Shown piece after piece: positions 36,401 through 39,640 of a stretch of 64,000 nt of DNA. Positions within the stretch are counted from its first letter, which is position 1, and each line of letters opens with the position of its first letter. The notes under the pieces are model-generated. The model made no database searches. It saw only the letters and a list, made by a program, of their open reading frames with translations, and was not told the DNA's origin. Position numbers and translations under genes: made by a program. The stretch comes from Hyphomonadaceae bacterium TMED5 (GTDB lineage Bacteria; Pseudomonadota; Alphaproteobacteria; Caulobacterales; Hyphomonadaceae), in the NCBI GenBank assembly GCA_002173095.1, contig NHBK01000002.1:1-64000 (forward strand), given 5' to 3'.

Positions 36401-36528
36401 GCATTTGAACGTTCAGCCTGCATCTAAGAGACCGCACGATCTCCACCACGCGAAGGATATCTTAAAATACATTTGTAGTGGCGCGCTGCTCGTCTAGTCT
36501 CATGCCGAATTCCACTGGGAGAGAAACC

Positions 36529-37053
36529 ATGTCTTTCACACTTTATGACGCGACCGTTCCGGGCTTCATCCGAGTCTGCGAATCTACGCTCCATGCTATG
36601 AAGCTCGGGCGAGACTATTGCCGCGAGAATGCACTCAATCTTGAAGACATTCTGGATGAGCGACTTTGCGGCGATATGTTGCCGTTTTCCTTCCAGATCA
36701 AATCTGTCTGCACCCACACAATTGGTGCCATCAACGGCGCGACCGAAGGTGTGTTCAGCCCGATCCCGCCAATGTCTCAGCCGGATTATACGCAGCTGGA
36801 AGAGATGCTTGCGGTGACCATTAGCGAACTGAAAGCGCTGGACCCATCCGAAGTGAATTCGCTCGGTGGCGGCGATGTGATGTTCTCTATGAAAGAGATC
36901 AAAATCCCGTTCACGGTGGAAGGCTTCTTCATGTCGTTTTCTATTCCGAATATGCATTTCCACGCGACCACAGCCTATGATATTTTGCGTATGAAGGGCG
37001 TTCCGCTCGGCAAGCGTGTGTATCTGGGCAATCTGGATATCAAGCAGAGCTGA
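36529..37053 (+). CDS. DUF1993 family protein
   Basis: 174 residues from ATG 36529 (MSFTLYDATVPGF), with GGGAGAG upstream; an earlier ATG at 36478 has no SD and gives a non-conserved extension. It matches DUF1993, a DinB-like four-helix fold, with ESTLHAMKLGRDYC, LCGDMLPFSFQIKSVC and IPNMHFHATTAYDILRMKG. The His residues may bind metal as in DinB proteins. Physiological role is unknown. Confidence 0.88.
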   Translation: MSFTLYDATVPGFIRVCESTLHAMKLGRDYCRENALNLEDILDERLCGDMLPFSFQIKSVCTHTIGAINGATEGVFSPIPPMSQPDYTQLEEMLAVTISELKALDPSEVNSLGGGDVMFSMKEIKIPFTVEGFFMSFSIPNMHFHATTAYDILRMKGVPLGKRVYLGNLDIKQS

Positions 37054-37159
37054 TCAGTTTCGCTGCAGCTCACAACATAGATTTTTACAACGTATCAGCG
37101 CCGCTTGACCGGCGCTGAACATCACGTCCCACTAAGGTTTCCGACCAGAGGAGTGGGCG

Positions 37160-38287
37160 ATGCGCAGACGTGATTTCCTGACAGGCATGGGGGCGGCGAG
37201 CCTTGCCGGATGTGCGACCACGGGAAGCGTCGCTGCGCCTGAAACCAGCCAGGCCCCATATTGGACCCAGTTCGCCCCGGTGAGATCCAGCATGAACCGG
37301 GTCACGCGGACGCTTGTCGGACTTCGGCCTTATCGCCCTCAGGGCTATCGGCTCGGCTGGGAGTATATGGGCGACAAGACGGTCGTGCATTCCTATGGGC
37401 ATGGCGGCTGTGGGGTGACCATGTCCTGGGGCACGGCCGTGGTCGCGGCGGACTATGCCAGCGAAGCAGGCCATGAGGATGTCGCCATTCTTGGCTGCGG
37501 CGTTCAGGGGCTGACTACGGCGCTGACGCTCGCCCGGCGCGGGCACAAGGTCACTATGTATGCCGCCGAACTGCCGCCGCACACCACGTCGAACATTGCA
37601 GGCGTTCTCTGGATGCCGACGACTTATTTTGATCGTGAAGTTGCGACGCCGGAATGGCAGGCATGGGACCGTGCGCTGGTCCGCATGGCCTGGCTCGGCT
37701 TCATTCCGTATGTGAACCGTCCGGGCTATGGCGTCTATTGGGCCGACCATCATAATCTGGGGCCGCGTGAGCCGCGTGCCTGGACGCAAGGGCTTCCGGG
37801 CGGCGATGATATCTATCCAGAGCTTACGCGCACGATTGGGCCGGGCAATCTGTTTGCCTATGACTACCAGCAACGCTTCAAGGCGATGATCATTGACCCG
37901 GACTACTATCTGGATGCTATTTTGCAGGACGCGCAAACGGCCGGGGCCCGCATTGTTCAGCGCGAGTTTTCCGATCTGAGCGAGGTTCTGGCCCTGCCTG
38001 AGCGGACCATTGTGAACTGTACTGGCCTTGGCGCAGGGGCACTGTTCGGGGATGAAAGCATGTATCCTGTACGCGGCCAGCTCACCCATCTCCTGCCACA
38101 GGAAGACATCAATTATTCCTATGTCGCGCCGACTGAGAACGGCGTGCTCTACATGTTCCCGCGCAATACGGGCATCGTTCTCGGCGGGACGACGGATTAC
38201 CATGAATGGGACCGCACACCGAACCCGGCTGAGATTACTCGCATGGTGGAAGGCCATGCCGAGCTCGCCGGTCGTCTGTCGGTCTGA
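37160..38287 (+). CDS. Circularly permuted D-amino-acid-oxidase-like flavoprotein (Tat-exported)
   Basis: 375 residues. A Tat signal (RRRDFLTGM) runs into a lipobox LAGC at residue 18. Residues 54-60 (GLRPYRP) and 77-83 (HSYGHGG) match the very end of normal D-amino-acid oxidases, but here they precede the FAD dinucleotide motif AILGCGVQGLTTAL (about 109-122). The rest follows in usual order: AGVLWMPTTYF, IVNCTGLGAGAL, PVRGQLTHL and VLGGTTDYHEW. The protein stops exactly where the C-terminal GLRP segment would normally come. It would oxidise D-amino acids or similar imines with FAD in the periplasm. The amidohydrolase gene follows 69 bp later. Confidence 0.88.
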   Translation: MRRRDFLTGMGAASLAGCATTGSVAAPETSQAPYWTQFAPVRSSMNRVTRTLVGLRPYRPQGYRLGWEYMGDKTVVHSYGHGGCGVTMSWGTAVVAADYASEAGHEDVAILGCGVQGLTTALTLARRGHKVTMYAAELPPHTTSNIAGVLWMPTTYFDREVATPEWQAWDRALVRMAWLGFIPYVNRPGYGVYWADHHNLGPREPRAWTQGLPGGDDIYPELTRTIGPGNLFAYDYQQRFKAMIIDPDYYLDAILQDAQTAGARIVQREFSDLSEVLALPERTIVNCTGLGAGALFGDESMYPVRGQLTHLLPQEDINYSYVAPTENGVLYMFPRNTGIVLGGTTDYHEWDRTPNPAEITRMVEGHAELAGRLSV

Positions 38288-38356
38288 CGATAAACAATCA
38301 TAATTGACCGCGTGTGAGGGCCATGGTCCAGTCACCGCAAACGGGAAGGACACGCC

Positions 38357-39640
38357 ATGATCAGAACTCTTATCGCCTCGACCATGTTGATGACCGGGGT
38401 GCTCGCAAGCGCTGCTCATGCTGAAACGACGTATATCCACGCGGGTCACCTCATGGCTGTGCCGGGTGAGGGCTATGCGACAGAGCAAACTGTGATCATT
38501 GAAGATGGTCGCATTCTGTCCGTTGAGGATGGCTATATCGCGCCGGAAGAGGGCGTAGAGCTGATCGATCTGAGCGAGGGGTATGTCCTGCCGGGTCTGA
38601 TCGATTCCCATGTCCATCTGACCTCTGAATTTTCGCCGGATATGCGCGTCATGATGCTGTCCGAGTCGGAAGTCGATGAAGCGCTCGATGGCGCCATGTA
38701 TGCGCGCCGCACTGTCGAGGCGGGCTTTACGACCGTGCAGGATGTGGGCTCATCGCCCGAGGCGATTTTCTCGCTGCGTGACGCCATTATGGAGGGCGAT
38801 CTGACCGGTCCCCGTATTCGAGCGGCGGGTGCATCCATCTCTCCAACCGGTGGGCATGGCGATGTAAACGGGCTGTCGCCTGCACTGATGAATGTTTTTG
38901 AAAGCGAGTTTGCGTGCAATGGTGCCGACGATTGCCGTCGCTCTGTACGTCTCGCCATTCGTGGCGGAGCTGATGTGATCAAGATCACCGCGACGGGCGG
39001 CGTTTTGTCGAACACACGTGCCGGCCTTGGTCAGCAATTCTTTGATGATGAGCTGGTCGCGATTGTAGAGGCCGCTGAGAGCATGGGCCGCCGGGTGACG
39101 GCGCACGCTCACGGTGTTGAGGGCATTAATGCGGCGCTTCGCGCCGGTGTGCATTCCATCGAACATGGCTCATATCTGAATGACGAGACCATCGCGCTCT
39201 TCCTGGAACATGACGCAGTTCTGGTGCCCACCGTGATCGCGGGCATTACCGTGACGGGATGGGTGGAAGAGCCATGGCTGCCTGCACCATCTCGCGAAAA
39301 GGCAGCAATTGTCGGCCCACTCATGCTGGATATGCTGCGCCGGGCCCATGACGGTGGCGTGCGCATCGCCTTCGGAACCGATACGGGCGTCTCTCGCCAT
39401 GGCGAGAATGCGCAGGAATTCCTCTATATGGTCGAGGCTGGCTTTGAGCCGGAAGAGGCTATTCGCGCGGCGACCGTCGTGGCCGCTGAGCATGTCGAAC
39501 TTGAGAGCGAGATTGGCACTATCGAATCGGGCAAATCTGCGGACATCATCGCGGTGATGGGTGACCCGGTTGAAGACATTTCTGAACTTCTGGATGTGGA
39601 CTTCGTGATGGCTCGCGGAGCGGTATATGTCGCGCCCTGA
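38357..39640 (+). CDS. Exported amidohydrolase (imidazolonepropionase/prolidase-like)
   Basis: 427 residues with a Sec signal peptide ending AAHA. The metal-dependent hydrolase motifs are in order: LPGLIDSHVHLT (His-x-His), VIKITATGGV (metal-bridging Lys), VTAHAHG and SIEHGSYL (metal His pair), AFGTDTGVS (catalytic Asp), and a C-terminal beta-sandwich ending GKSADIIAVMGDP. Related secreted enzymes hydrolyse dipeptides such as Xaa-Pro or Xaa-Arg. Cotranscription with the permuted oxidase is likely, hinting at joint use of peptides and amino acids in the periplasm (inference). Confidence 0.88.
   Translation: MIRTLIASTMLMTGVLASAAHAETTYIHAGHLMAVPGEGYATEQTVIIEDGRILSVEDGYIAPEEGVELIDLSEGYVLPGLIDSHVHLTSEFSPDMRVMMLSESEVDEALDGAMYARRTVEAGFTTVQDVGSSPEAIFSLRDAIMEGDLTGPRIRAAGASISPTGGHGDVNGLSPALMNVFESEFACNGADDCRRSVRLAIRGGADVIKITATGGVLSNTRAGLGQQFFDDELVAIVEAAESMGRRVTAHAHGVEGINAALRAGVHSIEHGSYLNDETIALFLEHDAVLVPTVIAGITVTGWVEEPWLPAPSREKAAIVGPLMLDMLRRAHDGGVRIAFGTDTGVSRHGENAQEFLYMVEAGFEPEEAIRAATVVAAEHVELESEIGTIESGKSADIIAVMGDPVEDISELLDVDFVMARGAVYVAP

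Follow-up and report, generated by a model that had tools for sequence, protein, structure and literature searches.

The gene at positions 37160–38287 of the window (the whole stretch of 64,000 nucleotides analysed, contig NHBK01000002.1 of Hyphomonadaceae bacterium TMED5) is a natural, old circular permutant of the family of D-amino acid oxidase (DAAO, EC 1.4.3.3) and DASPO (EC 1.4.3.1). The explanation as a whole, a permuted DAAO/DASPO of single origin that is exported as a Tat lipoprotein and oxidises D-amino acids, is considered likely. DAAO is a much studied flavoenzyme family. A circular permutation within it, common to a broad bacterial group and mostly combined with a Tat-like signal, is described here. 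No naturally permuted DAAO was found described in the literature covered, a coverage outside which subscription papers and preprints mostly fall. Flavin-binding folds with an altered order of elements have been compared in other proteins (PMC2395249, PMC2916828), in passages that do not describe a permutant inside the DAAO family.

Gene and protein features

An ATG, with AGAGGAG just 5' of it, opens a forward-strand ORF of 375 amino acids, the product of which starts with MRRRDFLTGMGAASLAGC and ends with ...PAEITRMVEGHAELAGRLSV. The motifs GLRPYRP (residues 54–60), HSYGHGG (77–83) and GxGxxG (112–117) are exactly at the positions given in the original prediction. The features are listed below, with counts over the 140 distinct permuted and 26 distinct ordinary-order bacterial sequences described in the next section.

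37160–38287, + strand: permuted DAAO gene, whole (375 amino acids and stop; PF01266, E 2.9e-34)
37163–37171, + strand: RRR, twin-arginine-like signal, residues 2–4 (from the sequence; for the Tat-like rule see Export signal)
37202–37213, + strand: lipobox LAGC, residues 15–18, with predicted lipidated Cys18 (by pattern; putative processing)
37298–37471, + strand: transposed block, residues 47–104, equivalent to the ordinary DAAO C-terminal block (phmmer, residues 50–105 against 6rkf 281–339)
37325–37327, + strand: Arg56, equivalent to human DAAO Arg283 (Arg in 140/140 permuted and 26/26 ordinary-order sequences)
37388–37408, + strand: HSYGHGG, residues 77–83, DAAO signature (sequence and phmmer)
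37454–37477, + strand: joint between the old C-terminus and the old N-terminus, residues ~99–106 (spacing between signature and GxGxxG)
37478–38284, + strand: body, residues 107–375, from the FAD-binding beta-alpha-beta unit through the substrate domain (PF01266 over 107–364; VIA-align)
37493–37510, + strand: GxGxxG dinucleotide-binding motif (GCGVQG), residues 112–117 (each Gly in 140/140, the first and second partly defining how that set was chosen)
38150–38152, + strand: Tyr331, equivalent to human DAAO Tyr228 (Tyr in 105/140 and His in 20/140 permuted; Tyr in 25/26 ordinary-order sequences)

The transposed block contains GLRPxRP, HxYGHGG and the final helix. An open frame of 510 amino acids on the opposite strand (window 37085–38617, − strand) spans the entire permuted gene; at a guess, it is probably a by-product of codon use.

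Order of the sequence blocks

The profile PF01266 (DAO) matched the protein with 119.6 bits (cut-off 27.9), the match starting at residue 107 and its best stretch ending at profile position 291 of 353. When the PDB sequences were searched with phmmer, the top 17 of 56 rows were all DAAO or DASPO, the best being human DASPO (6rkf, E 1.1e-26), to which two segments aligned in swapped order: residues 107–361 with 14–261 (61.9 bits, i-E 4.2e-16) and residues 50–105 with 281–339 (33.5 bits, i-E 1.8e-7). The swap was seen likewise in the phmmer alignments with the D-amino acid oxidases 8hy5 and 5zj9. In the window protein the signature (77–83) comes before GxGxxG (112–117), which is not the ordinary order and marks it as a permuted variant rather than an ordinary family member; a signature near the C-terminus, stated in the original prediction for DAAO, is true of these three solved relatives and also of 9vpf.

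For the rotation test, a profile was built from the 26 distinct ordinary-order bacterial DAAOs, residues 35–375 were rotated in 341 single steps and the best one-domain score was taken for each. The unrotated window protein gave two profile matches in swapped order, of 157.3 and 54.4 bits. The maximum on rotation was 222.7 bits (median rotation 162.3), and the 12 best rotations, corresponding to cuts at residues 98–109, each gave a single match of 221–223 bits covering 302–307 of the 313 profile positions; one rotation therefore yields a single collinear full-length match, as expected of a circular permutant. The same rotation raised the score of all 140 distinct permuted sequences (by 46.6 to 83.3 bits, median 68.9) and lowered that of all 26 ordinary-order sequences, the latter a friendly control, since the profile had been made from those 26.

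The ORFs of 190 loci were sorted into 161 permuted (140 distinct) and 28 ordinary, none was left unclassified, and a single locus (L048) was broken by a frameshift. The HxYGHGG-type signature had been used to choose the 140, so that its frequency in the set is no evidence. The claim that the GLRP and HxYGHGG blocks stand ahead of the FAD motif, with the remainder in the usual order, is upheld by the double phmmer match and by the rotation gain, and the protein was confirmed to end where the GLRP block usually starts. The permutation-aware comparison proposed at that time was strongly positive (from 157.3 + 54.4 to ~222 bits), and the recurrence of the order in many genomes was found in the 161 ORFs.

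The possibility that misassembly, a frameshift or faulty gene calling produced the swapped order can practically be discarded. Nothing in favour of it was found for the window gene, and an assembly or gene-model error is ruled out by the open ATG-to-stop frame and by the 161 ORFs sharing the order, which was read in isolates and metagenome-assembled genomes (MAGs) alike. The original prediction had named as counter-evidence an assembly error together with relatives of ordinary order, or a predicted structure lacking the DAAO fold; a copy from the same genus, 85% identical, has the permuted order, and the structure predicted for the window protein agrees with DAAO and DASPO over residues 104–374. 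The reading as a natural circular permutation is supported by the rotation test, by the recurrence and by the failure of both objections.

The closest known systems are DAAO and DASPO (PDB 2du8, 1kif, 6rkf and 9vpf). The permuted enzyme shares with them GxGxxG, GLRPxRP with the catalytic Arg, the HxYGHGG-type signature and the fold over residues 104–374; unlike them, it has swapped blocks, new termini and an N-terminal Tat-like signal. Other members of the DAO superfamily, glycine oxidase ThiO (TIGR02352), the C-terminal domain of MnmC and monomeric sarcosine oxidase, share the architecture of FAD and substrate domains; these have the ordinary order, and their profile and fold matches were weaker than those of DAAO and DASPO.

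Predicted structure

The AlphaFold2 model, obtained with 12 sequences, had a mean pLDDT of 82.7 and a pTM of 0.82, and the sole stretch of at least three residues with pLDDT below 50 was 1–34. The ten-residue blocks over 41–80 and 91–110 had pLDDT values of 88–96, and that over 81–90 of 73. In the model, strands 48–58, 64–70 and 73–79 and helix 86–102 precede the FAD strand.

The first 33 rows of the Foldseek search were DAAO or DASPO entries, with a query TM of only ~0.6, a low value explained by the sequential alignment, which has no means of placing the front block. With VIA-align, the top 17 rows were DAAO or DASPO and the first other rows had Z 18.0 or lower; against human DASPO, Z was 21.9 and rmsd 2.6 over 257 residues, model residues 104–374 aligning to chain residues 2–266. 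Both aligners are sequential and aligned residues 104–374 only. Folded alone, the front block was modelled poorly (pLDDT 66.8) and had no structure matches at E ≤ 0.001, a result that weighs neither for nor against the permutation. Its mostly confident prediction only within the whole protein agrees with a need for the body, and is no proof of its placement.

Cut, joint and probable route of the rearrangement

Between the end of HxYGHGGxG and GxGxxG there are 26 residues in 133 of the 161 permuted ORFs and 24–40 in the others. In the ordinary-order ORFs, the old head (from the upstream Met to GxGxxG) and the old tail add up to 25–35 residues in 22 of 26 and to 23, 38, 44 and 70 in the other four; the sum uses the nearest upstream Met, which 2 of the 28 ordinary ORFs lack. 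Since the permuted spacing matches these sums, the old C-terminus and the N-terminus of the FAD domain, whose joining had been proposed, are joined almost without a linker. The old C-terminal helix runs into what used to be the first FAD-domain strand, and the new termini are in the loop that connects the last substrate-domain helix with the strand bearing the catalytic arginine. In the most distant permuted branch the chain was opened in the same loop, the tail being somewhat longer.

All permuted enzymes would go back to one event in a DAAO of ordinary order, probably a tandem duplication followed by loss of the outer parts, and would later have spread by vertical descent and transfer. No tandem-duplicate intermediate was found among the 161 permuted chains, in which neither the signature nor the GLRP block ever occurs twice.

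Distribution among bacteria

The permuted order is present in eight bacterial phyla. The contig-wide search gave at least 563 relatives, and the best 80, the ones kept, were all permuted and cover Pseudomonadota, Acidobacteriota, Gemmatimonadota (MAGs), Verrucomicrobiota, Bacteroidota (Ekhidna lutea), Myxococcota and Zixibacteria, the last two with one MAG each; the eighth phylum, Actinomycetota, is represented by Nonomuraea. In the genome of the window itself no second match was found at E ≤ 1e-3, only the gene itself. Among 200 genomes of the same bacterial order, 91 had some match at E ≤ 1e-3: in 72 (its own genome included) it was collinear with the permuted query and below 1e-28, and in the other 19 it was weak (3.2e-6 or worse) and on or around the FAD half. 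In the phylum sample, 20 of 398 genomes matched at E ≤ 1e-20.

Further genome samples carry the group names of the loci that supplied their centres. With the centre genome included in each case, matches were obtained in 16 of 149 Acidobacteriota at E ≤ 1e-8 (10 permuted, 6 ordinary), in 20 of 198 Bacteroidota (2 permuted, 18 ordinary) and in 24 of 101 Gemmatimonadota (15 permuted, another 5 with matches collinear with the permuted query, two with a match to the FAD half only and two partial). In the gammaproteobacterial class sample (1 of 229) and in the Verrucomicrobiota sample (1 of 96) the only match was the centre genome itself. One genome of the Acidobacteriota sample (G631) has four near full-length matches to the permuted query (C40, C16 twice and C42), and the three copies fetched are all permuted. 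In an ordinary-order branch of Bacteroidota (L170–L173) the stretch from the FAD motif to the signature is ~50 residues longer (331–334 compared with about 282).

In PLSDB, 59 records matched at E ≤ 1e-5. Eight of them were read: five have an open permuted frame, one has the permuted gene split over two frames (Mesorhizobium) and two are ordinary. The permuted gene of Mesorhizobium onobrychidis plasmid pOM4 (L048, 5953–7016) carries the annotation of two CDS that overlap in different frames, and is either broken by a frameshift or misread. The annotated plasmid-borne permuted members, and some ordinary-order ones too, are named only FAD-dependent oxidoreductase, a generic name by which the annotation hides the rearrangement.

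Phylogeny

For the trees, the front block of the permuted sequences was moved back. A quick tree contained 90 permuted rows and 26 ordinary ones, the latter including two human sequences, and separated the two types on one branch (SH-aLRT 93). A second tree was built with 43 permuted rows, 25 ordinary rows (two human) and an outgroup of 6 rows retrieved by the ThiO model, of which two scored above the model cut-off. The ThiO-type rows stand far outside, and as this outgroup has the ordinary order, that order was taken as ancestral. The permuted sequences formed one clade with moderate support (82/91; 80% of 200 bootstrap trees), placed among or beside the ordinary DAAOs, and a branch of L041, L042, L047, L050 and L051 was sister to the other permuted rows (100/99 and 85/98).

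Repeated origin of the permutation, with that sister branch as a conceivable independent case, is improbable. The support for one clade, broken in 20% of the bootstrap trees, leaves some room for it, five permuted ORFs have a spacing of 30 instead of 26, as in the sister branch, and the gene neighbours of that branch differ. Against this, all permuted rows stand together in both trees, and in both branches the same ends are joined and the same loop is opened, the tail being longer in the sister branch.

Export signal

The Tat-like rule consisted of RR followed, at most 12 residues on, by a 12-residue uncharged stretch that is hydrophobic on average. It was satisfied by 133 of the 140 permuted N-terminal regions, compared with 1 of the 28 ordinary ORFs (two of which duplicate others in the set) and with 4 of 280 internal segments; the lipobox pattern was present in 95 of the 140. 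The window protein passes for RR, the short hydrophobic stretch and the lipobox Cys. Among the seven misses, L071 and L079 have RR by eye and L045 is interrupted by an in-frame stop. L042, L047, L050 and L051 are permuted and yet have no Tat-like signal, and since they belong to the permuted clade, permutation and export are separable. TatC was found in 10 of 10 genomes tried, including that of the window (G000, E 3.2e-70).

Judging from their sequences, most permuted members are probably exported and many are probably lipoproteins. The enzyme would fold and take up FAD in the cytosol, would then be exported by Tat and would be anchored in the periplasm by a lipid at Cys18. According to the sorting rule, lipoproteins in which the residue after the lipidated Cys is not Asp go to the outer membrane; as the residue following Cys18 is not Asp, the anchor would probably be on that membrane.

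A broader scenario, which we regard as speculative and rather doubtful, is that ordinary and permuted DAAOs diverged early within bacteria, and that the permutation made the enzyme exportable, giving an envelope-anchored D-amino acid oxidase or respiratory dehydrogenase. If true, the N-terminal FAD strand would have moved inside the chain, leaving a surface N-terminus able to bear a Tat lipoprotein signal, and the envelope-anchored enzyme would work on D-amino acids derived from the peptidoglycan of its own cell or of its neighbours.

Active site, gene neighbourhood and predicted function

Arg56 and Tyr331 are equivalent to human DAAO Arg283, which binds the substrate carboxylate, and to Tyr228, an active-site residue. 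The equivalent of Arg286 (R59) is kept in 139 of the 140 permuted sequences, and that of Thr45 (S144) is Ser in 140/140. Several pocket residues are unlike those of human DAAO: Gln53, Asp46 and Tyr224 are mostly not kept, in the permuted and in the 26 ordinary bacterial sequences alike, and the Tyr228 equivalent is replaced in 35 of the 140 permuted. From these changes, substrate use may differ from that of human DAAO.

The genes that flank the permuted gene in the window are the following:

36478–37053, + strand: DUF1993 protein, upstream neighbour (start according to the ORF tool; also in G160 and Ponticaulis koreensis)
38357–39640, + strand: amidohydrolase, downstream neighbour (NCBIfam; also adjoins the gene in G160 and Ponticaulis koreensis)

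The nearest NCBIfam model of the amidohydrolase is Xaa-Pro dipeptidase (368.9 bits, below the model cut-off of 500), and a neighbour of this type would fit peptide use. In the search over the loci it adjoins the permuted gene, besides the window, only in two close relatives, Ponticaulis koreensis and G160, the latter a single genome that supplied both L002 and L201; relatives elsewhere lie several kb off on the other strand (L046) or are weak (L110). Gene calling on 82 loci gave a same-strand neighbour within 150 bp in 42 of them and missed the annotated ThDP genes directly downstream in L047 and L050. The neighbourhood is not conserved: each Pfam family was present in at most 2 of the 51 close same-strand neighbours scanned (51 of 52 with at least 100 amino acids, that of L100, which has the same size and place as that of L097, being left out). 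As no fixed partner gene was present among the neighbours scanned, the enzyme may work by itself.

Of 6 sister-branch loci examined, 4 (Rhizobium, Bradyrhizobium, Mesorhizobium and Nonomuraea) have a gene for a ThDP enzyme after the permuted gene; its nearest model is indolepyruvate/phenylpyruvate decarboxylase, below the model cut-off. Such genes were noted at permuted loci that lack an export signal:

L047, 7041–8744: ThDP keto-acid-decarboxylase-like gene, directly downstream
L048, 7067–8812: ThDP keto-acid-decarboxylase-like gene, directly downstream
L050, 6990–8687: ThDP keto-acid-decarboxylase-like gene, directly downstream
L051, 7066–8679: ThDP keto-acid-decarboxylase-like gene, directly downstream

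By eye, an acetolactate-synthase-like ORF was recognised nearby in G354, on the opposite strand and not as the adjoining gene, and no ThDP-type neighbour in G308. A keto-acid decarboxylase beside an amino acid oxidase would make a sensible pathway, since it could use the DAAO product, and is a hint that backs oxidative deamination. At two Gemmatimonadota loci (L119, 9075–10283, and L129, 9054–10289), a gene with a GcvT-type aminomethyltransferase domain follows within 27 and 6 bp of the permuted gene, respectively, and on a Kozakia baliensis plasmid (L049, 7233–7658) a cytochrome c gene lies 5 bp after it on the same strand, which hints at a respiratory electron acceptor.

The permuted DAAO fold might serve another function, the oxidation of another amine, an N-alkyl amino acid or a 2-hydroxy acid. 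The differences of the pocket from human DAAO (Gln53, Asp46 and Tyr224, and Tyr at the Tyr228 position in 105/140) and the two GcvT-domain neighbours, of which that of L119 has a demethylase as its nearest model without reaching the model cut-off, point in this direction. We consider it unlikely, as the equivalents of Arg283 and Arg286 are kept throughout and in all but one sequence, respectively, the ordinary-order bacterial relatives also lack Gln53 and mostly Asp46 and Tyr224, DAAO and DASPO are the best matches by sequence and by fold, above glycine and sarcosine oxidases, and the ThDP keto-acid-decarboxylase-like neighbours suit amino acid oxidation. A somewhat better chance, still clearly below even, is given to a dehydrogenase that passes electrons in the periplasm to cytochrome c or quinone instead of oxygen, in agreement with the predicted location and with the cytochrome c gene of Kozakia baliensis. 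That is, however, one such locus only; no Pfam cytochrome c family recurred in 2 of the 51 scanned neighbours, and the genes flanking the permuted gene in the window are not of this kind. In the preferred reading, an exported D-amino acid oxidase, D-amino acids would be oxidised in the periplasm to imino acids, which would be hydrolysed to 2-keto acids and ammonia, and the electrons would be passed to oxygen or to a respiratory carrier.

Additionally, a berberine-bridge-type FAD oxidoreductase is encoded directly upstream of the permuted gene in L047 and L050.
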